Source of the DNA: Lachnospiraceae bacterium 3-1
Lineage (GTDB): Bacteria; Bacillota; Clostridia; Lachnospirales; Lachnospiraceae
Direction of reading: 5' to 3'
NCBI GenBank assembly: GCA_000403255.2
Contig: KE159593.1
Coordinates: 191,969 to 255,968, forward strand
DNA: 64,000 nucleotides
Part shown: positions 1 to 13,434 of the stretch, piece after piece
How the letters are laid out: every line of letters begins with the position of its first letter
How positions within the stretch are numbered: position 1 is the first letter of the stretch
Made by a program: the position numbers and the translations under genes
The notes under the pieces: generated by a model
Seen by the model: only the letters and a program-made list of their open reading frames with translations
The model's database searches: none
What the model was told of the DNA's origin: nothing

Positions 1-2
1 TG

Positions 3-515
3 GAAAGCATCACGAAAGGTCAGGCTTTTGGTGGTGCTTTTCCTTTGCAGAAAAAGAATATTTTTTTTAGTTTTTACTTGACAAAAGCAGAAATGTTAGC
101 ACTGACAAAAGAAGATGTTGATTTTCAAAACAATCAAATTAGCATTACTAAGACTTATTACAGAACGGAGCGTAGGGATATTATTACAACGCCGAAAACG
201 GAACAGTCGGTTAGAGTGATTGACATTCCCCAATTTTTAACGAAAGAGATTGAAATGTATGTGAACCGCTGTTATGCTCTGCCGGATAATGAAAGACTGT
301 TCCCGATTGTGGCAGAAGCGGTACAGCACAAGCTGAAACGTGCGTGTGTGAAATCGGGTGTAAAGCAAATTAGGGTGCATGATTTACGTCATAGCCATGT
401 GGCATATCTTATCAATCAAGGCGTACAGCCTTTGATTATTAAAGAACGGTTAGGGCATAGGGATATTAAAATCACGCTGAATATCCACTATAGAATAAAA
501 TTCCCGGTCATTTAG
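3..515 (+). pseudogene. Broken tyrosine-recombinase (phage-type integrase), C-terminal part
   Basis: The frame is open to the left window edge. The catalytic-domain signature HDLRHSHVAYLI (box with Arg and His) and the LGHRDIKITLN box of Int-family recombinases are clear. Two faults are visible. The region that normally reads like TGMRxxE, which carries the first catalytic Arg, reads YLTKAEMLAL, so that Arg is absent. Just after ITLN (near 484) the sequence leaves the family and stops, so the catalytic Tyr segment (usually TYGHLYP-like) is gone. The gene is most likely a dead integrase from an old conjugative or phage element, joined at its 3' end to unrelated DNA. The family call is firm; which element it came from is unknown. 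Confidence 0.75.
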
Positions 516-677
516 GCTTCTCTTAGAATAAAAATTCTGAAAGTCTGTGTCGCTTGACATCATAAGAAAGCGGAAATTTTCAATAAAGCTCCGTTGCTTG
601 TCTTGTGATTCCAGTTTTTCATATTCCCGTCTTATGTAGTGGGAAAGATTTTTTTCGATTTCTAAAATGAGTATCAC
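450..677 (-). CDS. Hypothetical protein fragment, antisense to the integrase end
   Basis: A 75-residue frame starts at a GTG behind a weak purine-rich stretch and is rich in charged residues (IRREYEKLESQDKQRSF). I do not recognise a family. Its last ~12 codons run through the integrase sequence, so the natural C-terminus was probably lost at the recombination junction near 484. It may be the remnant of an accessory gene of the same mobile element. It is given low confidence because the length is short and no motif is visible. Confidence 0.25.
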   Translation of the reverse strand: MILILEIEKNLSHYIRREYEKLESQDKQRSFIENFRFLMMSSDTDFQNFYSKRSLNDREFYSIVDIQRDFNIPMP

Positions 678-903
678 CGCCTTTGCATAATATAGTTGGA
701 GTTTATAGAAATTTAATAATTGGACATCACCTCACTTAAATCACAAATATAATTAAAACATCACACTTATAAATGAGATTATACATATAACTATGTGAAA
801 AGTCAATAGCACAAGATAACAAATAAGTTCAAAAAAACATGATACTTTGATTTTTCACATTTATTCATGTATAATCTTTGAAAAAGCATAACGAGGTGAT
901 TGT

Positions 904-1116
904 ATGGCTATGGCTTCTAAAATCCGTATTCTTCTGATTGAAAGAAACATGAAGATTAAGGACTTGGCACAAATGCTTGGATATAGTGGAAATAATTTGA
1001 GCAATAAATTGAGAGATGATAACTTTTCGGAAAAGGAATTGAGAAAAATAGCGGAGTTGTTGGATTGCGATTTTGACGCCACGTTTACTTTGAGAGATAC
1101 GGGGAAGATTATATAG
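904..1116 (+). CDS. Small XRE/Cro-type helix-turn-helix regulator
   Basis: A 70-residue protein that is almost only a Cro/C1-type HTH: KIRILLIERNMKIKDLAQML is helix 1-2 and GYSGNNLSNKL the recognition part. Regulators of this size are common in conjugative elements of Clostridia, where they control excision or transfer genes. The start at 904 has a GAGGTG ribosome-binding site six bases upstream; a second in-frame ATG lies two codons later. It stands alone between integrase debris and a recombinase-like gene and probably regulated one of them; that link is inference. Confidence 0.7.
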   Translation: MAMASKIRILLIERNMKIKDLAQMLGYSGNNLSNKLRDDNFSEKELRKIAELLDCDFDATFTLRDTGKII

Positions 1117-1192: not shown

Positions 1193-2193
1193 ATGCAAGC
1201 AAATTTGAATGATTTAATTGACAAATATGCACATAAAATAAGTGAAAAACAGGCTATACAATATGTTCCGATGTTAAAAAATTATTTTGTACCTTATATT
1301 ATTGAGAATTATTCTTGTAATAATCTAAAATCTTTATTTTGTGAGGAAATTACCCGTAATGGCATAATACAATCCGGGGTGTATTATGTCATGAATAATG
1401 AAAATGTTTCTGCAAAATCAAGATTGATTTATTTTTTGAATGCTTTGGATAGTTTTTTTATAATTCCTTGTTTGAAATATTTCCTAACCCCAATATACGA
1501 GGTATTTATCCATTTACTAGTCTACAAGATGAAATTGTAGAAATTTTAAATAAAAAAGGTATTCATTTGTATGATAAAAAACAGAACCCACCTATTGATG
1601 ATGAACAGTATATTTTTTTGATGGATACAATAAAAAATAAAAACGGTTCCTTTATATCGAAACAGAAAAATATTATTATTAAGTTGTATTTATTATATGG
1701 GTTGAGTGCGGATAAATTGTCAAAAGTGCTGGTATCAAAGTACTCAAGTGAACGTAATGTATTGATGATTCCGTGTTCTGTTCGTACAGATATAATTATT
1801 CATATTGAGTTACCTTATGGATTATCTAAGGAAATATCAACCTACATAAGTGAAAGAGGTTTGAGTGATGATGATTTTCTGTTTTTAACTGAAAAAGGAA
1901 ATGCAGTTACTTCTAACTATATTAACGATTATCTGAAAAGTATACAAAAAGCATATTATAAAGGTGTACAACCAATGCAAGAGAATCAATTTACTCCTAC
2001 GGGTTTACAAAAATATGCTATTATTAAAATGATTGAAGGAGGAATGAATCAATCTATAATTATGGATTTTACTGGACAAGGTTCTGATATTTTCAGTGAT
2101 TGTCAAAATATAGTAGATGAACGCAAACATTTAAACAGAAATAGATATATAAATCATATGATAAGAGGTATAGTTTCGTATGATGATATGTAA
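1193..2193 (+). pseudogene. Tyrosine-recombinase-like protein split by a -1 frameshift at a T7 run
   Basis: Two overlapping frames belong together. The first (from ATG 1193, with AGAGGAG upstream) reads NALDSFF up to seven T at 1453-1459. Re-reading one T there continues as YNSLFEIFPNPNI and stays open to 2193, giving about 333 residues. The second half has recombinase-like architecture (an LLYGLSADKLSKVL helix and FTPTGLQKYAIIKMI in the place of the HxLRH box), but the catalytic Arg and His positions are not conserved. It therefore looks like a catalytically inactive or very divergent recombinase. The break may be a mutation, a homopolymer error, or programmed slippage. It lies directly before the tuf fragment. 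Confidence 0.5.
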
Positions 2194-2400
2194 TTAGTAT
2201 TGCGTTATGAGTATTTCCTTGATGATATATCAAACATGATGCTAGCACCATGTAATAAGGGTGGATAAGAAGAAAATTGGTATTTTGCCACTGGCTCTAT
2301 TTTGGCTCTAAAATTTTTCAAAACAGTAAATATGTAGTGCTAAACCAGATAATATGATGAATAATAAGCAGGAAAATGCAGTAAAAACATTCAGATTTCA

Positions 2401-2466
2401 TTTCCGAAAGCTCGTGAGGGTGGTAGAACAGTAGGTTCTGGTCGTGTGGCTACGATTATCGAGTAA
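2401..2466 (+). other. tuf: 3'-terminal fragment of the EF-Tu gene (tuf), likely attachment-site scar
   Basis: The frame ending with TAA at 2464-2466 reads REGGRTVGSGRVATIIE, which is the conserved C-terminus of elongation factor Tu. Upstream of the Arg codon the sequence stops resembling tuf, so only about 54 bases of coding sequence are present, without a start. Elements that integrate into the 3' end of a gene leave exactly this kind of duplicated gene end at the distal border. The recombinase-like gene and integrase debris immediately upstream fit that reading. The intact tuf gene is not in this window. Confidence 0.8.
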
Positions 2467-2488
2467 TCAGTAAAAAGCTAGATTTTAT

Positions 2489-2520
2489 GGGGCTTTCCGA
2501 GAAATCGGGAAGCCCTTTTT
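2489..2520 (+). terminator. Intrinsic terminator after the tuf fragment
   Basis: GGGGCTTTCC and GGGAAGCCC form a GC-rich stem around a GAGAAATC-type loop, followed by five T. It sits 23 bases after the tuf stop and is probably the original tuf terminator. Confidence 0.8.
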
Positions 2521-2760: not shown

Positions 2761-3207
2761 ATGGAGTCAAAAGCTATTCTATATCATAGTAATAAAGAAC
2801 ATGAATGTAAAAAATTTATTTCTCTGAGTGATTATTTAATTGTTAGTGAAAACAATAAAGATGATATATGGCTAGGGAAAGGTATGTACTTTTGGGATAA
2901 TAGAGGAAATGTTGACTGGTGGAATAGGAAACAGATGAAAAAACATCCACAAGATAGATTTTCTATTGTGGTTGCAAATGTGAATTTAGACCATCTTCTT
3001 GATTTAACGGATATTGAGATTTATAAAAAATTACAGGAAGTGTGGAATGCAATATGCAAGAAAGCAAAGTTGGATTCTAATAGACCTTTGGGAAATAAGT
3101 TGGATTATTTATTGGATATAGAAAATTATAGTATAGTATATTCTGTTACACCACTTTACAACTTTTTGAAAAATAAAATAACGCACAAGGCACTTTCTCA
3201 TGTATAA
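2761..3207 (+). CDS. Truncated hypothetical protein, possibly ADP-ribosyltransferase-like
   Basis: About 129 native residues are followed by a tail encoded by the IS that interrupts the gene at 3148. The N-terminal part reads ILYHSN then, some 35 residues on, WLGKGMYFWDN and a WW pair. This order resembles DUF3990-type ADP-ribosyltransferase-fold proteins (YHGS ... GxGFY). I cannot confirm the family; the similarity is in pattern only. The GAGGGCTGGCGAATG context gives a plausible but poorly spaced ribosome-binding site. The C-terminal portion is missing, so the product is probably not functional. Confidence 0.45.
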   Translation: MESKAILYHSNKEHECKKFISLSDYLIVSENNKDDIWLGKGMYFWDNRGNVDWWNRKQMKKHPQDRFSIVVANVNLDHLLDLTDIEIYKKLQEVWNAICKKAKLDSNRPLGNKLDYLLDIENYSIVYSVTPLYNFLKNKITHKALSHV

Positions 3208-4378
3208 TAAGTTTGCATACAAAACTATACGAAAGAGAGTGATCTTGTACGTCAGACTTATTATACAACGAAAATAATCTAATTGGTAGACTGTACCGTT
3301 ATTTTTATATTTATTTTAAAACTTTTTCCGCACCAACTATTGAAACCCTGTTTTTGCTGGTATTATCTATACTTGCTATGGAGTCAGCGGCCTCCATCCG
3401 TTCATTGTACAGACATTTTTTGGCGGGAATTACGAAAAAATCCCTGAATGCATTTTATTATGCATGTTCTTATGCAAAGGCAGATTATTCCAGATTCATG
3501 AATACCACTGCGGGCATGGCTCTAAATCTCATACCGGAAAAACTACAGTCACAGCCTGTGTTTCTATGCATTGATGACACAATGGTTTCGAAATTTGGCA
3601 AAAAATTCGAGGATGTTTCAAAGCTTTTTGACCATGCCGCGCATCATGTTTCAAACTATCTGAACGGACACTGCTTCGTAAGTGTAATGGTCTGTGTCCC
3701 GGTATGGAACAAAGGCAGGATCCACTATCTTTGCGTTCCGCTTGGATACCGCATGTGGCAGAAAAAGGAATCCAAGCTGGAACTGGCTGCATCCATGATA
3801 CGGCATGTAATGCCTGTATTCCATGAAAAGAAAAATGTCATCATCCTCTGCGACAGCTGGTATGTAAAGAAGAACCTTGTTTCCATCGTGGATGAGTATG
3901 AAAATCTGGATCTTATAGGGAATGCAAGATCCGACTCCGTTATTTATGACCTGCCGCCGCAGCGCACGGGGAAACGGGGACGGCCTGCATCGCATGGAAA
4001 AAGGCTTTCTATCCATGATGATTTTACGCTGTCTGATGAAAAAGATAGAAGTTAGTTACTACGAACAGAAAACTTTCTGGTCACTGTGCAGTTACATGGT
4101 CCGCAGCCGCAGAGGGATTGAAATGCTGGTCAATCTGATTAACATTTCATACTGTGCGATGAAGCTGCTGCCATACCAGGATGAGGCGTTTTTTAAATAT
4201 CAGACAGAAAGCGTTCAGGAGTTTCGGTTTGCTCTAAGCGAACAGATTCGCCAGCAGGTATTTTATGCCATTTTCGTAGAAAAAGTCGAAACCAGTATAA
4301 AATCAAATGCCCTAATAAATGCCTTAAAACAGCTAATTAAGAAACAGGGGCATCATTTATAAAGTTGTAAAGTAGTGT
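3148..4378 (+). mobile_element. Insertion sequence, copy 1, DDE transposase type, internally deleted
   Basis: The ends are near-perfect inverted repeats: ACACCACTTTACAACTTT on the left and, reading the other strand, ACACTACTTTACAACTTT on the right. A second copy with the same ends lies at 13412-14512 in the opposite orientation. A leader of about 100 bases precedes the transposase frame in both copies. No clear target duplication is visible at either end. The element cuts a hypothetical gene on its left and a relaxase gene on its right. Confidence 0.85.
3354..4362 (+). pseudogene. IS transposase with an internal deletion and frame change (copy 1)
   Basis: The first frame carries the early part of an IS4/IS701-like DDE transposase: FLCIDDTMVSKFGKKFED holds the first Asp and VIILCDSWY the second. 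Coding similarity extends upstream of 3354 without an ATG (RLYRYFYIYFKTF), so the real start is uncertain. After the DEK codons near 4042 the reading frame shifts, and the terminal part KIEVSYYEQKTFW, with the presumed catalytic Glu, continues in another frame to 4362. Comparison with copy 2 shows about 80 codons missing at the junction. No single frame encodes all three catalytic residues, so it should be inactive. Confidence 0.8.
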
Positions 4379-5033
4379 AAAAGAAAACAAGCCAAGAATT
4401 GTATATTGCAGGGTGCGTCGGTATAAAAGGGCAAAGATGTCCGGGTTACAGAAAAAGTATTATGCGAGGCTGTACCGGATTGGGAAGCTTAAGAAAAAAG
4501 CCTATTCTGTGACATGGAAGTACAAGGATGAGATTAAGAAGATGCAGAAATTGCAGGCACAGTATCAGTTTCTTGTAAGGCATGATATTCATTCCGTAGT
4601 TGATCTGGCACTTGTGGAAGATAATCTTACGGATAAAAGAAAAGAGGCATCTGCCATGAAAAGCCGGATTTACCGGGCAAACAGCAAGAATAAGGAGCTT
4701 TATGATATTGCAAATGAGATGGATGAACTTTTAGAGTGTGAAAATTCCTTTAGAAACGGAGATGCGTTTTTCGAGGATGAGCATAACAGATGGCTTTTGC
4801 GGGAGAGCAGATTAAAGGAGCTTGGCTATTCCTATGATGAGGTAAAGGCATTAAAAGAGCATTACCGCAGTGAAGGAGCAAAACTGAAAAGTCTGGAACA
4901 GGAAGCATCGAAAGAGCTGAAACTTGCAGAATCTATCAGAAAAGATTTTGTTGGTGCAGACGGACAGGAAGTTGAAAGACAGCAGGAAGAAGTAAAAGAA
5001 CAGAATATGGAACACGAGAAGCAGCCAAGATGA
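4379..5033 (+). pseudogene. C-terminal fragment of a conjugative-element relaxase
   Basis: The open frame (first in-frame GTG at 4413) reads RRYKRAKMSGLQKKYYARLY followed by a long, charged, probably coiled-coil region. I recognise this as the C-terminal half of the mobilisation nuclease found in conjugative transposons of Lachnospiraceae. The N-terminal nuclease domain with its Tyr and His triad is absent because the IS ends directly upstream at 4378. The fragment has no convincing start and probably is not made as a functional protein. A small conserved gene follows it, as expected in such modules. Confidence 0.6.
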
Positions 5034-5070
5034 TAGGCTGTTATTTTTTTGAAAGAAGGAGGAAATTCAG

Positions 5071-5412
5071 ATGGAAAGACAGATGACGGCAGTTGATGTC
5101 CAGGCATATCTTAGAGATGTAAAGGACAGAATCATGGATGCCAGGGTCATAGCTCTAGTCGAAGAAGATTTGGAACATGGGCTGATGCCGGGCGAGATTA
5201 ATGATTATACAGACAGGGGACTTAGTTTTGAACAAATGAAGGCTGTTTCTGATATGTATCGAAACAAAATTCCCATAGCAGTAGTTGCATCCATTGGTGC
5301 AAAAAAATATGATGCAGAGAAAATGAAGGTGGCAACAGAGCTTTATCTGAAGCAGATACCGGTAGAAGATATTGAGAAGGCATTGGCAGATACAAATACT
5401 GTAAGCGATTAA
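5071..5412 (+). CDS. Hypothetical protein of a relaxase module, C-terminus replaced by IS66
   Basis: 113 codons begin at an ATG behind AGAAGGAGG. The protein has a repeated helical pattern (EKMKVATELYLKQIPVEDIEKAL resembles an earlier segment EQMKAVSDMYRNKIPIAVVASI), suggesting tandem helical repeats. I recognise it only as a small conserved companion of relaxase genes. The IS66 left end begins at 5401, and the final residues VSD plus the stop codon are encoded by the IS terminal sequence, so the original C-terminus is lost. Confidence 0.6.
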   Translation: MERQMTAVDVQAYLRDVKDRIMDARVIALVEEDLEHGLMPGEINDYTDRGLSFEQMKAVSDMYRNKIPIAVVASIGAKKYDAEKMKVATELYLKQIPVEDIEKALADTNTVSD

Positions 5413-5575
5413 TAACACACCGTTCCACAAATCGTTCCACTTCTGAGATAATACAGTAAATAAACAGTAAATGGCTGCTGTTTCTATTCGCATATCCAGA
5501 TGCTGTCGCATCACTACTCTTTTCTGAAAAAGGTAGCCGGTTACTGTGCAATAACTACTTCAGGAGGAACAATAA

Positions 5576-5968
5576 ATGAGGAGCAAAAATAAAACCGAGG
5601 CTGAATGGATGACTCTGATCCAGACATGCCGCAGCAGCGGTCTGACAGACAGATCCTGGTGTGAACAGAACGGCATTTCAATCAATACATTTTACAATAC
5701 GATTTCAAAACTCAGGAAAAAATCATGTGTCATTCCGAAGTCACTTGAGAGTCGTGTGAATGAATTACCGGAAATTGTTCCGGTATCTGTGAGCAGTGAA
5801 GACGACACACTGGTATCGGATATGTCCGGGCAGCGAAACACTGATACACTGGAAACGGATACCATTGCTGCAATTACGGTTACAGTGAATGGCTGTTCTG
5901 TTGAAATCAAAAACAATGCCTGCAGAGACCTGATTTACAATACATTATCAGCTCTGCAGCAATTATGA
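5576..5968 (+). CDS. tnpA: IS66 accessory protein TnpA
   Basis: A 130-residue protein with the N-terminal HTH typical of IS66 TnpA: TEAEWMTLIQTCRSSGLTD followed by RSWCEQNGISINTFYNTIS. TnpA is a DNA-binding accessory factor needed for transposition. The C-terminal half is acidic and variable, as in relatives. CAGGAGGAAC lies upstream of the ATG. The stop overlaps the start of tnpB (ATGA), showing translational coupling. Confidence 0.85.
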   Translation: MRSKNKTEAEWMTLIQTCRSSGLTDRSWCEQNGISINTFYNTISKLRKKSCVIPKSLESRVNELPEIVPVSVSSEDDTLVSDMSGQRNTDTLETDTIAAITVTVNGCSVEIKNNACRDLIYNTLSALQQL

Positions 5969-6318
5969 TCGGGGATTTGTCCAGAGTACAGAAAATCTAT
6001 CTGGTAACAGGGCGGACTGCCATGAGAAAGTCATTCGACGGCCTCATGGCAGTCATCCGGGATAACTTCCAGCTGGATCCCTTTACCAATGCAGTGTTTT
6101 TGTTCTGTGGACGAAAACACAATACCATGAAAGCCCTCTATTTCGACCGTGATGGATTTGTACTCTTACAGAAACGGTTAGACAATGGAAAGTTTCAGTG
6201 GCCGCGTAATTCATCTGAAGTCCGTCCTTTAACAAGACAGGAATTCCGATGGCTGATGGAAGGGCTTTCCATTGACCAGCCCAGGGCAATCCAGCCGGCG
6301 AAAGGCAGGGACTTCTGA
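5965..6318 (+). CDS. tnpB: IS66 accessory protein TnpB
   Basis: A 117-residue IS66 Orf2 protein. The family signature is plain: VYLVTGRTAMRKSFDGL-like at residues 10-27, then VFLFCGRKHNTMKALYFDRDG and the RPLTRQEFRWLMEGL tail. Its exact role in transposition is not settled in the family. It overlaps tnpA by four bases and is intact. About 280 bases of non-coding IS sequence separate it from tnpC. Confidence 0.9.
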   Translation: MIGDLSRVQKIYLVTGRTAMRKSFDGLMAVIRDNFQLDPFTNAVFLFCGRKHNTMKALYFDRDGFVLLQKRLDNGKFQWPRNSSEVRPLTRQEFRWLMEGLSIDQPRAIQPAKGRDF

Positions 6319-6602
6319 TTTGTGCAATATGCAGAATTTAAAAAAATATTTCTGCTGCAGAAAGCTGCTGTAACCCGGAGATATCCACAGATGTGAAATC
6401 ATGGGGAAAGTTGTTCAGGGAAACTTGTCCCGTCATACACAAGGCTGTGGATAACTTTCTGGAGTTCCTGTAAAAACAGCTGGTTTATGAGTGAAAAAAA
6501 GATACTTTGGATTCGTCATAATGCCAGTGTCCTTTTTGCCGGCATTTGCGGTAATTCCGCCATTTTAGTACAATACATGTATCTTAAAAGAAGGAGGAAT
6601 TC

Positions 6603-8333
6603 ATGGTGGATCCAAAGGGGCAGAACATACTTTTCCGAAACCAGCTTGCACAGAAAGAACAGCTGATGCAGATGCAGAATGAGCGTCTGGCAGAGCAGAC
6701 AGAAACAATCAAAGATCTGCGGGCAACCGTTGACCGTATGACAGAAGAGATTGCAGGACTCCGGGAGACCGTGAATGAATTCCAGCGGATGCTCTTTGGC
6801 AAAAGCAGCGAAAAAACAAAGAACAATGCAGAAACAGAAGATGCAGCACCGGAAGACATGGAGAAAGTGCCGACTACGGTAAAGAGTCATACAAGAACAA
6901 CACGGAAAGCAAAAGCCACCCGTGAAGACCAGTACGGAAATCTGCCAGTCCATAAAGAGGTGATCCCACTGCCGGAAGAAGAGAAACAGTGTCCTTACTG
7001 TAATTCACAGATGGAACCCATAGGGGAAACATTTGTCCGGGAGGAGCTTCGGATTACCCCGGCAAAGGTGGAACGCATCCATTATTATCAGGAAAAATGG
7101 ATCTGCCCGGACTGCAGACAGGACGGGGATGGAACATTTGCAGAATCCAAAGCACCTGCCGCGCTGATTCCACACAGTCCGGCATCACCATCCATTGTCG
7201 CTTATGCTGCAATGGAAAAGATCAGTCTGGCAATGCCGTACTACCGTCAGGAATACCTGATGAATCAGCTGGGATTTACACTTCCGAGGGAAACGATGGC
7301 AAACTGGATCATTTACGCTGCAGAGAATTATTTCTATCCGGTCTATGAGCGGATGCGCGAAGAGCTCCTGACACGTGACCTTGTGCATGCAGATGAGACG
7401 CCATGCCGGGTGCTGCGTGAAAAAGGACGTGCCGCTGAACAGATATCATATATGTGGTTATACACAACCGGCAATGATGGTCTGGCGGCGGTCGTGCTCT
7501 ACGATTACCAGCCAAGCCGGAAAGGAGCATGCGCCCAGGACTTTCTGGAAGGATTTCATGGTCTGGTACAGTGTGACGGATATCAGGGTTACAATAAACT
7601 GGAAGACGTCATACTGGTATGCCGCCTTGCACATGCAAGGCGTAAGTTCTTCGAAGCGGTTCCTGCAGGCAGGCGTAAAAAGCTTAAGCTGCTGGATATC
7701 AATTCAGATGCAGCAATCGAAGATACCGCACTTCCGGATGGGGAAGAAGCAGGGCAGCTGCTTCCTGCGGAGATCGGACTTATGTATTGCAACAAGCTCT
7801 TCTATCTGGAACGGACGCTGAAGGATCTGAAACCGGAAGAACGGAAACAACAAAGGCTGGAACTGGAACAGCCCGTATGGGAGCAGTTCTGGAACTGGCT
7901 GGACACACTGCATCCAAGTGGCGGAAGCAAGCTTGGGAAAGCGGTGGCCTATGCCCAAAACCACCATGACACCCTGATGAACTATCTGCTGGATGGCAGA
8001 TGTGAGATCTCGAATAACCGTGCGGAACGAAAGGTCAAGAGCTATGCAATCGGACGGAAAGCATTCTTATTCCACACATCAGAGGCAGGTGCAGGGGCAA
8101 GCGCAGTAATGTACAGCATTGTCGAAACTGCAAAAGCGAACAATCTGAATATCTTCCAGTATCTCTATACGGTACTCCTGTATATGCCGGATTGCATGAA
8201 TTCGTCCGCAGGTATAGAACAGCTGATGCCATGGAGCGATTTTATTAAGGAGCAATGTTCAGGACTCATTGATGTGGAGTCAAATGTTCCAGAAAAAAGA
8301 ATTCCCCTGCCACTTGCGGAGCAGAGGGATTGA
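6603..8333 (+). CDS. tnpC: IS66-family DDE transposase TnpC
   Basis: A full-length 576-residue IS66 transposase. An N-terminal coiled coil (residues 10-70) precedes the FGKSSEK linker, a Cys zinc-binding region (CPYCNSQM and CPDCRQDG), the DDE core with VHADETPCRVL and VQCDGYQGYNKL, and the ISNNRAERKVKSYAIGRK region with the last acidic residue. AAGGAGG is six bases before the ATG at 6603. Nothing in the frame is broken, so this copy may still be able to move. Confidence 0.92.
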   Translation: MVDPKGQNILFRNQLAQKEQLMQMQNERLAEQTETIKDLRATVDRMTEEIAGLRETVNEFQRMLFGKSSEKTKNNAETEDAAPEDMEKVPTTVKSHTRTTRKAKATREDQYGNLPVHKEVIPLPEEEKQCPYCNSQMEPIGETFVREELRITPAKVERIHYYQEKWICPDCRQDGDGTFAESKAPAALIPHSPASPSIVAYAAMEKISLAMPYYRQEYLMNQLGFTLPRETMANWIIYAAENYFYPVYERMREELLTRDLVHADETPCRVLREKGRAAEQISYMWLYTTGNDGLAAVVLYDYQPSRKGACAQDFLEGFHGLVQCDGYQGYNKLEDVILVCRLAHARRKFFEAVPAGRRKKLKLLDINSDAAIEDTALPDGEEAGQLLPAEIGLMYCNKLFYLERTLKDLKPEERKQQRLELEQPVWEQFWNWLDTLHPSGGSKLGKAVAYAQNHHDTLMNYLLDGRCEISNNRAERKVKSYAIGRKAFLFHTSEAGAGASAVMYSIVETAKANNLNIFQYLYTVLLYMPDCMNSSAGIEQLMPWSDFIKEQCSGLIDVESNVPEKRIPLPLAEQRD

Positions 8334-8452
8334 GGGTAAACGGCAGCCGTTTACTGCTTAAAACTAATTTTTGAAAAAAGGTAGGCGGTGAGTTATTCAT
8401 CGCTTACATTTATAGTAAATTTATGAGGATTGTGTCATTTTCAACTGGGTAA

Positions 8453-8620
8453 GATGTTGTAGAGGATGAATGTTTAGAGCAGTTGAACTGGAAATTGTAT
8501 GATGCAGGTAACTATGAAGAATGGGATGGACTGACAGCATTATTTATTGAACTGGTAAATGCAGATAAAACATTATTGGAAGACTCATATATTAAGAAAT
8601 GGTATAAATTATCGTGTTAA
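8453..8620 (+). pseudogene. Remnant of a hypothetical gene right of IS66
   Basis: A stop-terminated frame without a start reads LNWKLYDAGNYEEWDGLTAL and ends KKWYKLSC. The composition is protein-like and a stop separates it from the IS end. It is probably the tail of a gene cut by the IS or by the rearrangement that removed the target duplication. I do not recognise the family. Confidence 0.4.
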
Positions 8621-8682
8621 TTGAAGGAATGGTAGTGTGAAAGAAAGTAAATTAAGCCCAAAACGTGAATTAGACACAAAAA

Positions 8683-8707
8683 ATAGGCTCACATTGTGAA
8701 CCTATTT
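8683..8707 (+). terminator. Hairpin AATAGGcTCACA / TGTGAaCCTATT
   Basis: A nearly perfect 12-bp inverted repeat with almost no loop. The T-tract after it is short, so it may be a weak terminator or a remnant end of a repeat. The following 140 bases before the next gene contain G-rich and C-rich blocks (8724-8790) that could fold, but I cannot assign them. Confidence 0.4.
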
Positions 8708-8891
8708 GACGGTATTCCCACCTAAGAAAATAGGCGCACCTGCACATCAACAGCAAGACGGGTGGGTGCATCTGATATTGATGCCGGGATGCTTTAATAA
8801 TTGGGTAAATTATAACACGAAAACTTGAAGGTGTAAAACACTTTCATTACTATTTGTGCCGCCAGCCGAAGGCGGCGGAATGGAGATTAGT

Positions 8892-9350
8892 ATGCAGATA
8901 TATGTAGATGCAGACGCTTGCCCGGTGGTAAGTATTGTAGAAGAAGTGGCAGAAAAATATAGGATCAATGTTACATTGCTCTGTGATACGAATCACATTT
9001 TGACTTCCGATTACAGTGAAGTCATTGTGGTTGGTGCAGGAGCAGACGCAGTTGATTATAAATTGATTAGTATTTGTCATAAAGGAGACATCATTGTTTC
9101 ACAGGATTACGGAGTAGCGGCAATGGCGCTTGGAAAAGGTGCGTATGCAATTCATCAATCAGGAAAATGGTACACAAATGAAAATATTGATCAGATGTTA
9201 ATGGAACGACACTTGAATAAGGAAGCAAGGAGAGGTTCTCATAAGAATCATTTGAAAGGTCCTAGGAAAAGGACAGAGGAAGACGATAAGAGATTTGCAC
9301 AGTCGTTTGAGAAGCTGGTGTTAGTGGCACGGACACAAGAAGGAGAGTAA
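8892..9350 (+). CDS. YaiI/YqxD family protein (DUF188)
   Basis: A 152-residue member of the UPF0178/DUF188 family. The N-terminal IYVDADACPV motif, DTNHI, the GADAVDYKLI motif and SQDYGVAA are all present, as is the basic GSHKNHLKGPRKRT tail region. The fold is PIN-like with conserved Asp residues, suggesting a nuclease, but no reaction is established for the family. The ATG at 8892 is chosen over an upstream in-frame start because GGAG lies six bases before it. It opens a tight run of seven genes to 12891 with gaps of a few bases. Confidence 0.85.
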   Translation: MQIYVDADACPVVSIVEEVAEKYRINVTLLCDTNHILTSDYSEVIVVGAGADAVDYKLISICHKGDIIVSQDYGVAAMALGKGAYAIHQSGKWYTNENIDQMLMERHLNKEARRGSHKNHLKGPRKRTEEDDKRFAQSFEKLVLVARTQEGE

Positions 9351-9353
9351 TCA

Positions 9354-10040
9354 ATGGCAAAGAGCAAGAAAACCAAAATACATAAGAAAACAGATGGACA
9401 GCTTTTGCAGATGAACAAGTCTTTTAACAATCTTAAGATGAAGCAGAAAGATAAGATTACTGCATGGGTATACGAAGAATACAAAAAGTATGTAACTGAG
9501 AATGAAAAAGTTCCTGACTCAGAAGCGGATGAGCATATTATTGATGCTGTTCTTGATAAGATTAATGAGGCACAGATATGGATACCGTCGGGAGAAATTG
9601 TTAGTTATTATCGCAGAAAGAAACCACATTTGCAGAAACGACTGGATAATGAGAAAAACATAAAGTTCATGTCGTATGTGAGTTTTTATAAGAGTATCGT
9701 GGATCAGGACAGATGTGCAGTAGTAATATGCGATTTGAATCATGAAATTATTTATATGAATCCGGCGGCTGTACTTAACTATGAGAAATGGGGCGGAGAA
9801 AAGTTGATTGGAAGAAGCCTCATGGAATGTCATAACCAAGCGTCTAGAGAAAAGATACAGCAAGTGGTTGATTGGTTTATAGCAGATGATAACCACAATA
9901 TTGTATATACTTTTCACAATGAAAAGCAAAATAAGGATGTATATATGGTTGCTCTTCGAGATGAAGGAAAGCTGATTGGGTACTACGAGAAGCATGAATA
10001 TAGAAATACAGAGAAAATGAAACTTTATGATTTGTGGTAG
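9354..10040 (+). CDS. PAS-domain protein with a conserved N-terminal region
   Basis: 228 residues in two parts. Residues 1-95 are basic and helical, with the IWIPSGEIVSYYRRKKPHLQKRL segment that I know only as a conserved hypothetical region. Residues about 108-215 form a PAS-like sensor domain (CDLNHEIIYMNPAAVLNYEKWGG ... GRSLMECHN). PAS folds bind small ligands or cofactors and sense redox or metabolites; the ligand here is unknown. No kinase or DNA-binding output domain is visible, unless the basic N-terminal part binds nucleic acid. It starts three bases after the previous stop with GAAGGAGAG upstream. Confidence 0.65.
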   Translation: MAKSKKTKIHKKTDGQLLQMNKSFNNLKMKQKDKITAWVYEEYKKYVTENEKVPDSEADEHIIDAVLDKINEAQIWIPSGEIVSYYRRKKPHLQKRLDNEKNIKFMSYVSFYKSIVDQDRCAVVICDLNHEIIYMNPAAVLNYEKWGGEKLIGRSLMECHNQASREKIQQVVDWFIADDNHNIVYTFHNEKQNKDVYMVALRDEGKLIGYYEKHEYRNTEKMKLYDLW

Positions 10041-10049
10041 GTGAAGCAG

Positions 10050-10391
10050 ATGAATATCCAGATTTTTGGAACTAAGAAATGTAATGATACAAAGAAAGCA
10101 GAACGCTTCTTCAAGGAGCGTGGCATTAAATATCAGTTTATTGATATGAAAGAAAAAGGCATGAGTAAGGGAGAGTTTACTTCTGTTGCGCAGGCTAATG
10201 GCGGTCTTGAAAATATGATTAACTGGGAAGGAAAAGACCAGGATATACTTGCTCTTATTAAGTATATTGCAGATGAAGATAAACTGGAAAAGGTACTTGA
10301 GAATCCGCAGGTAATTAAAACACCAGTAGTAAGAAATGGAAAACAATCTACACTTGGATATCAGCCTGATGTATGGAAGGGATGGAATTAA
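10050..10391 (+). CDS. ArsC/Spx-family thioredoxin-fold protein
   Basis: 113 residues with the family start QIFGTKKCNDTKKAERFFKE: a single Cys in the position of the ArsC active-site Cys, and the later TPVVRNGKQSTLGYQPDVW segment with the conserved TP and Arg. Members are arsenate reductases, Spx regulators or uncharacterised oxidoreductases. There is no arsenic gene nearby, and the CxxC of Spx is absent (Cys-Asn-Asp-Thr), so a redox role is more likely than arsenate reduction. The ATG at 10050 is preferred over GTG 10041 because GGTAGGTG precedes it. The stop overlaps the deformylase start by one base. Confidence 0.75.
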   Translation: MNIQIFGTKKCNDTKKAERFFKERGIKYQFIDMKEKGMSKGEFTSVAQANGGLENMINWEGKDQDILALIKYIADEDKLEKVLENPQVIKTPVVRNGKQSTLGYQPDVWKGWN

Positions 10392-10801
10392 TGGTAAAGA
10401 AGATAATGCATGATCCGTTGTTTCTGGCACAGAAGTCAGTGGATGCAACAGAGGCAGATAAACAGATTGTGACTGATTTGCTTGATACACTTAGGGCAAA
10501 TTTAGAACACTGTGTTGGTATGGCTGCCAATATGATTGGAGTAAAAAAGAATATCATTGTAGTAGCAGCCGGACCATTTCAATTTGCAATGATAAATCCG
10601 ATAATTACAAAGAAATCCGGAGTGTATCAGACTGAGGAAGGATGTCTTTCGCTGAAAGGCGTAAGACCATGCACGAGATATCAGGAAATAGAAGTGGACT
10701 ATCTTGATCAGAACTTTAAGAAACAGCACGGAAAGTATTCAGGGTGGACAGCACAGATTATTCAGCATGAGATTGACCATTGCAATGGAATAGTAATCTA
10801 A
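10391..10801 (+). CDS. def: Peptide deformylase
   Basis: A 136-residue peptide deformylase, which removes the formyl group from the N-terminal Met of new proteins. All three motifs are present: GMAANMIG (for GxGLAAxQ, with Met-Ile instead of Gln-Ile), EEGCLSL with the metal-binding Cys, and QHEIDHCNG with the two metal His and the catalytic Glu. The Gln of motif 1 is replaced by Asn (AANMIG), a deviation from the consensus. It is short for the family, as are other Clostridial secondary deformylases. It is embedded in an accessory operon, so it is probably not the sole deformylase of the cell. Confidence 0.88.
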
Positions 10802-10820
10802 GAATCAGGAAGATGGAAAG

Positions 10821-11342
10821 ATGTATTTAATCAAGACGGTAAAAGGTGATATTACGAAAATTACAGATGTTCAGGCAATCGTCAATGCTGCAAACAACTC
10901 TCTTTTAGGAGGGGGTGGAGTTGATGGTGCCATTCACAGGGCAGCAGGACCGGAACTTCTGGCAGAATGTAGGACTCTTCATGGTTGTGAGACAGGTCAG
11001 GCAAAGATTACAAAAGCATATAATCTGCCATGCGATTATGTGATACATACTGTGGGTCCGATTTGGAATGGTGGCAGAAGTAAGGAAGAGGAACTTTTGG
11101 CAAGCTGTTATTTTCATTCTATGCAGGTGGCACTTGAGAATGAGATAAGAAGTATCGCATTTCCTTCTATTTCAACCGGAGTATATAGTTTCCCGGTAGA
11201 ACTTGCAGCAAAAATAGCGGTCAAGACGGTCAGCCGATTTTTGGAGGATAACAAGAATAGCTTTGACCTTGTAGAATGGGTTTTGTTTGATTCTGTGACA
11301 GAATCAGTGTATGAAAAAGAAGTGGATACGTTGTATTCATAG
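10821..11342 (+). CDS. Macro-domain protein, O-acetyl-ADP-ribose deacetylase type
   Basis: 173 residues forming one macro domain. The ligand-binding features are plain: GDITKI near the start, [44 protein letters not shown] and the [10 protein letters not shown] loop. This is the MacroD/YmdB-like class, which hydrolyses O-acetyl-ADP-ribose or removes ADP-ribose from proteins. The Asn-Asn and Gly-Gly-Asp positions expected for catalysis are intact. A second, divergent macro protein sits two genes downstream. Confidence 0.9.
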
Positions 11343-11359
11343 ATTGGAGTGTGATTGAT

Positions 11360-11818
11360 ATGCCAAAAATGAAATGGTCAGAATTAAGTCCCATGCAGAT
11401 AGGACGGTATGCGGAGTATTATGCAAAAATGGAGTTTACTTCGTATGGATATGACGTATATACATCGGAAGTAGATGACCATGGCGTTGATTTTGTGGCT
11501 AGAGATGTGAAGACGGATATTTTTTATGAGATACAGGTAAAGAGCCTGCGAAAAGGAAATTATGCATTTATTCCGAAAAAATTAATGGATTGCAACGATA
11601 GTAAAAGACTTGTGTGTTTTCTGAAATTTGTGGATGGTCGATTACCGGATGTATATGTGATACCTGCAACAGCATGGCAGAATCTGAACGAAGCATTGCT
11701 ATATAGAAAATATGATAAGCCGGGTCAATCAAATAAACCGGAATGGGGAATTAGTTGTGCGAATAAGAATTTGCCATTATTAGAGAAATACCGTGCTGAA
11801 AAATATCTTGAGCAATAA
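11360..11818 (+). CDS. PD-(D/E)XK nuclease-like protein
   Basis: 152 residues. RYAEYYAKMEFTSYGYDVYT resembles the helical start of DUF4365 or homing-type PD-(D/E)XK domains. It is followed by HGVDFVARD and FYEIQVKSLRKG, giving the D ... ExQxK pattern of the nuclease core. A DNA or RNA cleavage role is inferred from this pattern alone. ATG 11360 is chosen because GGAG lies ten bases upstream; the earlier GTG has none. It lies between two macro-domain genes with spacings of about 10 bases, so all three are probably co-transcribed. Confidence 0.6.
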   Translation: MPKMKWSELSPMQIGRYAEYYAKMEFTSYGYDVYTSEVDDHGVDFVARDVKTDIFYEIQVKSLRKGNYAFIPKKLMDCNDSKRLVCFLKFVDGRLPDVYVIPATAWQNLNEALLYRKYDKPGQSNKPEWGISCANKNLPLLEKYRAEKYLEQ

Positions 11819-11829
11819 GGAGGTGCCAG

Positions 11830-12891
11830 ATGCCATTTAAGATAGTACGCAAGGACATAACTCATGTCAAAGTAGATGTGATTGTAAATACTGCAAATCC
11901 AAAACCAATATACGCAAGTGGCACAGATCTGGCAATTTATCAGGCGGCTGGAGCTGATGAGCTTCTGGCGGAACGAAAAAAGGTAGGATGTATTGAACGA
12001 GGTGATATTGCGGTAACAGGTGCATATGCTCTAAATGCTAAATACATTATTCATACAGTTGGACCGGTATGGGTGGATGGAAAGCATGAAGAATTTGAAA
12101 TCCTCGAAAGCTGTTATGAAAAATCATTACAGAAAGCATTGGAGCTTGGATGTGATAGTATTGCATTTCCACTTATTTCAACCGGCGTTTATGGATTCCC
12201 GAAAGATAAAGCATTGCAGATTGCGGTGTCTGTGTTCAGCAGATTTCTCTTGCAAAATGAAATGCAGATTATTCTTGTAGTTTTTGACAAGAAAGCATTT
12301 CAGCTTTCCAGACAGCTGGTTGGAGAGATTGATTCATATATTGATGCAAATTATATCAGACAAAAGCGTAGAACCGAATATTCGAGGCGACTATTCAGGC
12401 GCAGTAGAATAGAATCTGATATAACATGCGATTCGGAAGTTTATGAAGAATGTAGCCGCTATACGGAGGCAGAAGAGAGTAAGCCGGAACTGCTTATGTC
12501 TGTTCCAATGCCGGAGAAGGCTATGTCTCTGGAAGAGGAGTTGGAAAATGTAGGAATGTCGTTCCATGATAAGCTTTTTGAACTGATTGGCAAGTCAGGA
12601 ATGGACAACAAGGATGTCTGGAAAAGGGCGAATCTCGATAGAAAGCATTTTTCGAAGATACAGTGTGATGAAAAGTATCATCCCAAGAAAAAGACAGTGA
12701 TGGTTCTTTGTATTGCTCTGGAATTAGATTTGGAACAGGCAAAGGATTTGCTAGCGAGGGCGGACTGGGCGTTTAGTCCAAGCAGTAAGGTTGATTTGAT
12801 TGTACAGAAGGCAATCATTGATAAGCAGTATGATATTTATCAGCTTAATTTGGTGCTGTTTCAATACACTAATGAAATACTTGGGGTGTAA
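11830..12891 (+). CDS. Macro domain fused to an HTH-like C-terminal domain
   Basis: 353 residues. Residues 1-160 form a divergent macro domain: VDVIVNTANPKPIYASGTD replaces the usual NAANxxLxGGGGVDG loop, and ISTGVYGFP is kept. A charged linker (about 175-230) leads to a C-terminal domain of about 110 residues (SFHDKLFELIGKSGMDNKDV ... RKHFSKIQ ... KTVMVLCIALELDLEQAKDLL), which looks like an XRE-type helical bundle. The loop changes suggest ADP-ribose binding rather than hydrolysis. The C-terminal part would suit nucleic-acid or RNA polymerase contact, but that is inference. AAGGAGGTG gives a near-ideal ribosome-binding site. Confidence 0.75.
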   Translation: MPFKIVRKDITHVKVDVIVNTANPKPIYASGTDLAIYQAAGADELLAERKKVGCIERGDIAVTGAYALNAKYIIHTVGPVWVDGKHEEFEILESCYEKSLQKALELGCDSIAFPLISTGVYGFPKDKALQIAVSVFSRFLLQNEMQIILVVFDKKAFQLSRQLVGEIDSYIDANYIRQKRRTEYSRRLFRRSRIESDITCDSEVYEECSRYTEAEESKPELLMSVPMPEKAMSLEEELENVGMSFHDKLFELIGKSGMDNKDVWKRANLDRKHFSKIQCDEKYHPKKKTVMVLCIALELDLEQAKDLLARADWAFSPSSKVDLIVQKAIIDKQYDIYQLNLVLFQYTNEILGV

Positions 12892-13020
12892 TTGCAATGG
12901 ATGTCCTGTTTTACCAAAGTACTTCATACTATCACATTACTTAGAACAAAATTGATATAACATAGAGTAGCCTGTTTGAAAAGATAGGTTCTATTAACAG
13001 AAGGAGTTGAATAAATACGA

Positions 13021-13434
13021 ATGCAAAAGTTATTTGGCAAAGAAGAAATTGAACAGTATTCTCAAATTTCACTTGAATATATGGTAAAAACAACATATGA
13101 AATGGGTGGAGACATAGATGAGAACGATAGAAGCATACTGAACACAGATTTCGTGGAAAATGCACTTTATTGTGGTAATTGTTTTGACGGATTTTTTGAA
13201 CAAATTAATTGTCGCCGTTTTGGTAATCGACTTTTTGTTGAACTCCAGAAATTAGGGGACTACGATGGTTGTTATAAAGATTGGTCGATGAAAAAGTATA
13301 TGAAAACTATGCATGAAATTTGTGAAAGTATGGACGAGGTTTTGGTAAGTAATTATGAATATGATGATAATGACCCTGCTGGAAGAGCTTTTTTTATTGC
13401 TTTTTTGTTTGACACCACTTTACAACTATTATAA
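13021..13434 (+). CDS. Hypothetical protein truncated by IS copy 2
   Basis: About 130 native residues, acidic and rich in aromatic residues, then a few IS-encoded residues (TTLQLL). I recognise no family. The start ATG has GAAGGAG 14 bases upstream, which is far, so a nearer non-ATG start is possible. The IS end at 13412 removes the C-terminus. The gap of 129 bases from the preceding gene shows no clear terminator. Confidence 0.45.
   Translation: MQKLFGKEEIEQYSQISLEYMVKTTYEMGGDIDENDRSILNTDFVENALYCGNCFDGFFEQINCRRFGNRLFVELQKLGDYDGCYKDWSMKKYMKTMHEICESMDEVLVSNYEYDDNDPAGRAFFIAFLFDTTLQLL

Follow-up and report, generated by a model that had tools for sequence, protein, structure and literature searches.

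The question raised by this locus is how the last codons of tuf, the gene for elongation factor Tu (EF-Tu), came to stand beside recombinase-like genes with no continuation of tuf 5' of them. The window (the whole stretch of 64,000 nt that was analysed, contig C23:191969-255968 of a 5.08-Mb genome) carries at 2413-2466 of the + strand exactly the last 54 nt of tuf, encoding REGGRTVGSGRVATIIE and a stop codon. The first 11 nt of this fragment (2413-2423, +) form the core CGTGAGGGTGG, which occurs once in the 64-kb window and in 0 of 100 shuffles. A terminator-like hairpin, which travels with the tuf end, follows at 2489-2520 on the + strand (fold -21.6 kcal/mol, z -4.95, then UUUU); it was detected by folding, as 12 pairs around a GAAA loop at 2489-2516 with UUUU after them, none of 200 shuffles was equally stable, and a consensus terminator scan returned no hit for it. 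The earlier note had placed a reading frame with its stop codon and a terminator, lacking upstream tuf sequence, in 2193-2520, and both features do lie inside that span; its left limit, however, is the stop codon of a recombinase-like open reading frame (ORF; 1468-2193), and tuf sequence starts only at 2413. The fragment is the displaced tail of the essential EF-Tu gene, at a border between small mobile elements, and our preferred reading, with a probability of roughly 0.93, is that it is where site-specific integrative elements, which have the tuf 3' end as their attachment site, join in a tandem array. Our tuf-end scans require a close match to the EF-Tu tail, so that strongly decayed ends escape them, which biases upward how intact the fragments counted below look.

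The intact tuf gene and its displaced end

The genome has a single match to EF-Tu domain 3, an intact tuf ending at C23:90,497, which lies 103.9 kb upstream of the fragment on the same strand of the same contig. The fragment aligns to this gene at 82% identity (E 4e-9): the two have the 11 nt of the core in common, beginning at a CGT codon, after which 10 of the 54 positions differ, spread over nine codons. All 10 differences are silent, an outcome obtained in 0 of 200,000 random draws of 10 changes, which suggests that the fragment was under selection as a working tuf end before its displacement. Folding places a terminator-like hairpin directly right of the intact gene as well. Because the gene upstream of the element is the intact tuf, the fragment is, judged from its sequence, the distal att site, the attR of the left element. 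The earlier note had proposed just such a site for a tuf-targeting element, and relatives with uninterrupted elements are arranged alike. Its idea that the element rebuilds the target gene with a copy of its own also holds up, since the element carries its own, silently different tuf 3' end; as in islands that enter and restore the 3' end of a protein gene, the target is intact and the displaced end lies on the far side. The upstream search that it advised did recover an intact tuf but not a long identical 3' repeat, the common stretch being 11 nt.

Two elements meeting at the fragment

To the right of the intact tuf follow, in order, the hairpin, GGCTCTA repeats, a PemK-like gene, a repressor-like HTH gene, an excisionase-like gene (HTH_17 match just under the Pfam cut-off) and an N-terminal integrase segment (Arm-DNA-bind_4 and SAM_3 domains) with an in-frame stop. 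The repeats form the left-end twin GGCTCTA-AAAT-GGCTCTA at +193 of the gene. The PemK-like toxin gene (L004:10893-11555; loci compared are numbered L) lies just inside the left end of the element, and a 95% identical copy is found in L044, right of a tuf fragment. The integrase match stops at C23:93,070 and restarts at about window position 90-93. There, ORF 3-515 includes the C-terminal piece of a tyrosine integrase (93-515, +; PF00589, 1.2e-15). Over 132 aa this piece shares 95% identity with the uninterrupted L157 integrase, and from about position 489 onward it ends in an unrelated tail. The DNA that splits this tuf-element integrase is an insertion of ~99 kb (C23 ~93,070-192,060, or L004:13071 to window 92), whose right tip occupies window positions 1-92 (+), up to where the integrase match resumes, the boundaries being approximate. 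It looks like a separate integrative and conjugative element (ICE): three tandem serine recombinase genes stand at its right end, the last ending 24 nt before the window, and plasmid-partition and surface-protein-like genes were read by eye near its left.

Further right, a segment with an HTH gene (904-1116) spans 483-1115 (+) and has 90% nucleotide identity to L089:14710-15342, which sits between tuf ends at 8849 and 18753. Next comes a recombinase-like region, possibly frameshifted (1193-2193, +), made of overlapping ORFs in different frames, 1193-1540 with no Pfam match and 1468-2193 with a PF00589 match (1.2e-5) below the Pfam cut-off; among the compared tuf-element loci it has no tblastn relative at 1e-5. 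Together with ORF 3-515, this bears out the recombinase debris claimed for the border. The right-end twin repeat GGCTCTA-N4-GGCTCTA (2293-2310, +), putative integrase arm sites, lies 120 nt before the core and is the sole match in the window at one mismatch or fewer (0.01 expected). The right-end DNA (2214-2412) is 85-91% identical in L042/L091, L085, L094, L157 and L044. Both ends of the window's element thus bear one repeat type, GGCTCTA, as expected for one element. No AAA ATPase or MobV relaxase homologue was found in it at E 1e-3, and since an intact integrase and a relaxase homologue are lacking, mobility of its own cannot be claimed. L157, from another genus, has an uninterrupted integrase that is 98, 97 and 95% identical to the three pieces of the window's element, with genes for an AAA_25 ATPase and a Mob_Pre relaxase after it, and the locus shows the same junction of GGCTCTA, core and GGTGCCA.

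A second tuf element also has its left end in the fragment, which makes the fragment a tandem-array junction, because the fragment is followed by the left-end twin repeat GGTGCCA-AAAT-GGTGCCA (2566-2583, +), which has no other match in the window at one mismatch or fewer (0.01 expected). In L099/L161 (one contig) a full tuf is followed by a GGTGCCA-type left end to which positions 2413-2587 are 83% identical, and to the left end in L083 they are 80% identical; right of 2583 the rest of this element is not recognisable. An ORF without a Pfam match (2761-3207) lies directly right of the junction, and a DDE_5 transposase gene starts after it, at about 3354. Probably the older GGTGCCA element was in tuf first, and the GGCTCTA element then entered between it and the gene.

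Recurrence, core and end repeats in Lachnospiraceae

Among 29 same-genus genomes (the window's own included), 10 gave at least two DNA matches to the fragment with its terminator, one of them (G015) with a second match to the terminator part only. The 23 same-genus genomes that matched tuf at 1e-150 did so once each. Left-end-type twin repeats lie downstream of 11 of the 22 same-genus tuf genes with a readable end, two of the 11 genes without repeats having less than 160 nt of downstream sequence, and by this count elements at this target, of which the earlier note knew few described, are not rare in the group. In a first scan by integrase alignment, among at least 77 loci, a tuf end was present in 43 of 54 loci with an integrase at least 54% identical and in 0 of 23 at 49% or less. 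Seven of the 11 tuf-clade loci without a tuf end are contigs shorter than 6 kb; L092 has its tuf end further out (L159, 10.3 kb upstream), and L072 and L078 have none in ~10 kb upstream. In a sample of the family, with roughly one genome for each genus and 299 in all, 19 genomes had 22 integrase places at least 54% identical, the window's own split gene excluded. These places are covered by 21 loci. A tuf end is present in 20 of them, as a full tuf in 16 and as a fragment only in four, and the remaining locus lies at a contig edge. Relatives of the kind that the earlier note proposed to look for in other Lachnospiraceae therefore recur across the family. None of six controls with an integrase 45-50% identical has a tuf end, these controls being, with one exception, the next in rank from about 100 weaker matches and not a random draw. 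The first scan and the family sample overlap in some records, and several loci are the same records. A family census, covering the 30 best loci where 99 genomes matched, showed twin repeats in six of the 29 loci that were new to the counts. A class-level sample of 392 genomes yielded a single genome with a match at 1e-120, from the same family, so that the integrase clade seems for the most part restricted to Lachnospiraceae.

At L045 (G004:C24, ~3,900-13,400) tuf is occupied by a prophage-like element with a D5-type primase and repeats of the GGTACTA type, whose integrase belongs to another clade (43% identical) and lies in the opposite orientation, so integrative mobilizable elements (IMEs) are not the only users of the site. 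Two records of the phage collection and one of the plasmid collection have tuf ends. The plasmid-labelled Agathobacter rectalis record NZ_CP143948.1 (L188) reads rpoC-rpsL-rpsG-fusA-tuf, with a second tuf end 3.8 kb after the first and radical SAM and MFS genes, and no annotated integrase, between them; it may be a piece of chromosome.

The position of the crossover can be narrowed by comparing 27 left/right pairs of tuf ends (spans of 1.1-17.7 kb, plus 103.9 kb in the window's genome), which include near-duplicates such as L073/L074 and come from a search anchored on the CGT codon, which fragments starting elsewhere in the last 17 codons escape. Core positions 1-5, 7, 8, 10 and 11 are identical in all 27 pairs, and positions 6 and 9 agree in 24 and 25 of them, respectively. 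Divergence starts at wobble position 12, where agreement drops to 16 of 27, and each of the nine positions 5' of the core agrees in only 1-12 pairs. The block in which the crossover most likely falls is CGTGARGGNGG (R-E-G-G), at codons 17 to 14 ahead of the stop.

From 118 loci, 78 non-redundant tuf ends were gathered (40 full genes and 38 fragments, 12 of 90 having been dropped as duplicates). Downstream twin repeats occur at 45 of them, 28 at +139, and are absent at 33, some beside integrases; upstream twin repeats precede 26 of the 38 fragments, 15 at -120 and 11 at -121. This census accepted up to two mismatches between twins, the tree, family, same-genus and background counts at most one, and with that slightly stricter motif the background is 85 in 1.32 Mb, real ones included, or 0.004 per 60 nt. 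Placed on the integrase tree, repeat type needs 2 changes over 28 labelled rows (14, 13 and 1 by state), the minimum for three states; only integrases less than 3.1 kb from the left end were labelled, and all 34 labelled rows also gave 2. The second integrase tree omits the window's integrase piece and L085, which is in the first tree and has a shifted frame with 20 stops as X. Left and right repeats agree in the window's element and in 12 of 14 others, near-duplicates included; L082 and L091, with unlike repeats at their two ends, are read as composite arrays. Among the 12 array junctions at which both repeats could be read, 11 join two different types, a pattern that would arise if the core can be shared by unlike elements while like ones are excluded or lost. 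From their place, their pairing and the Arm-DNA-bind_4 domain, we infer that the twin repeats are integrase arm-binding sites, and linkage or relatedness of the adjoining DNA alone could yield part of their agreement with integrase clade.

That the twin repeats are a host regulatory feature of the tuf 3' region instead of arm sites would suit L190, L196, L204 and L206, where they stand without an integrase match within the 1.2-1.5 kb read (in L190 and L196 one follows further on). However, repeats are also found at right ends, 120-121 nt before the core and away from the intact tuf, their type tracks the integrase clade, and they were unseen in half of the same-genus tuf genes, two of these with little downstream sequence, all of which makes a host function quite improbable. 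Some bacteria possess two tuf genes, and the divergence of the fragment from the intact copy (82%) would suit a remnant of a second tuf gene or of a partial tandem duplication formed without site-specific integration. Such an origin is barely credible when in all 27 pairs of the anchored search the shared stretch starts at the same base and codon while agreement before it is inconsistent, many fragments have twin repeats at fixed spacings and integrases of a single clade beside them, and the same-genus genomes have one tuf match each; an ordinary duplicated tuf was rejected on the shared start and the adjoining integrases and repeats.

Taken literally, the earlier note made the fragment the ancestral tuf end of the host, pushed aside by a single element, and the fragment's terminator does resemble that beside tuf genes with no visible element, e.g., in G006 and G007. 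Nevertheless, the GGTGCCA repeats that follow and the 83% identity to the element left ends in L099/L161 make it more likely that the fragment was brought by an earlier element, and the single-element account is unlikely, if less so than the other two. The fragment may accordingly be the earlier element's copy and not the ancestral end, within the tandem array that we prefer.

Gene content, proposed mechanism and known systems

In the elements that were read, an HTH repressor gene on the opposite strand accompanies an excisionase-like gene and an integrase, often together with an AAA_25 ATPase and a relaxase, and in relatives uninterrupted integrases sit between the paired tuf ends. The stretch between the ends includes a MobV homologue in 17 of 26 paired relatives and an AAA homologue in 18, and Mob_Pre was confirmed in L040, L041, L042 and L157. 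Among the nine without MobV, MobA_MobL was found in L073, of which L074 is a near-copy, and in L162, and a MobA/VirD2-like relaxase in L108; L100 is a 1.1-kb piece, and L075, L080, L103 and L173 gave no relaxase in the small set of their proteins that was searched. Reading by eye of the ORFs of seven loci, with selected proteins in Pfam, showed no obvious pore genes inside the elements, and no packaging gene was identified among the element proteins searched. A search for an excised circle in five small 'Bacteriophage sp.' records was negative: they have no terminal overlap and give no attP evidence. The possibility that these are prophages only was rejected: L045 is prophage-like, yet most paired relatives have a MobV homologue. 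Cargo matches include a BsuBI/PstI restriction-modification pair and PDC-S18 (L041), an MmeI-type enzyme (L103), a cytosine methylase with Vsr (L044), a reverse transcriptase with retron RT_VI as best match (L047), bSEFIR (L046) and Thy1 (L043). These names are library matches with predicted functions, and no frequency of defence cargo is claimed because the proteins were chosen by eye. The elements are best read as candidate tuf-specific IMEs, and it is likely that related gut bacteria stack such elements at tuf, several with anti-phage-type cargo.

Both att sites, a common crossover block, the repeats, the gene content and the recurrence are all present in the genomes compared. Under the preferred reading of a tandem array at tuf, a tyrosine integrase would cross over inside CGTGARGGNGG of the gene, and the incoming element would bring its own silently different tuf end and terminator while pushing the previous tuf 3' end to its far side. 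EF-Tu would keep its sequence because the element supplies that silently different end, and insertion into a single-copy essential gene, which is among the most expressed in the cell, would be tolerable because synonymous last codons and a terminator come with the element. As integrase clades differ in their repeats, several elements could share one core. In the window's genome this would have left a broken GGCTCTA element between tuf and the fragment and an older GGTGCCA left end right of it. The predicted excised circle would join the right end, the CGTGAGGG core, the tuf end and the left end. Excision and transfer, like the action of the integrase at the core, are presumed from sequence, with machinery that would come from an ICE or a plasmid helper.

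A wider proposal, on which we would lay even odds, is that single-copy tuf is an accretion site of Lachnospiraceae used by at least four integrase lineages with one core, whose repeats (GGTTCTA, GGTGCCA, GGCTCTA and GGTACTA) act as compatibility types. Unlike elements would then stack in tandem without excising each other and like ones would rarely coexist, building a mobile defence island whose members would time and again rewrite the EF-Tu end and its terminator. The preferred reading itself would add EF-Tu to the essential protein genes that serve as attachment sites and give a name to a recurrent group of mobilizable elements of gut bacteria, of which some bear defence-type cargo, and the repeat types would pose a testable question, namely how integrases with one common core keep elements apart. 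It would also provide a simple finding rule, in that a contig with tuf would be looked over for another tuf tail, and it would supply integrases for a highly conserved site, useful in engineering Lachnospiraceae.

In the tandem accretion of ICEs and CIMEs, successive insertions occur at one att site core. The tuf arrays are alike in this use of a single core, and differ in that nearly all of their readable junctions (11 of 12) join elements with different end repeats. PICIs carry a repressor and defence cargo and are mobilised by a helper phage and not by conjugation, with no relaxase. Phage satellites such as these resemble the tuf elements as small integrated elements with their own integrase (PMC10111431). 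Most of the paired tuf elements differ from them in having a relaxase homologue (MobV in 17 of 26). Genomic islands targeting dusA or trmE also have integrases specialised on one conserved protein gene, although dusA is entered within its 5' end and the hosts and genes are others (PMC4482086 and PMC8409611).

In the openly licensed literature searched, mainly abstracts and including PMC5704250, PMC12292103, PMC9092696 and PMC12884075, tuf is not described as an attachment site, nor are repeat types that allow tandem stacking; an earlier description of either in a database or subscription journal is possible. The tuf-targeting group is apparently undescribed, while its general kind is already known from IMESag-rpsI and similar streptococcal IMEs (PMC5704250). 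IMESag-rpsI likewise has its own integrase and a MobV relaxase and is named for a conserved protein gene, and its mobilization module is mobilized in trans by plasmid pAMbeta1 (PMC5704250). The elements described here differ from it in targeting tuf and not rpsI, in their Lachnospiraceae hosts, and in combining several integrase clades and different end repeats with one core and tandem stacks.
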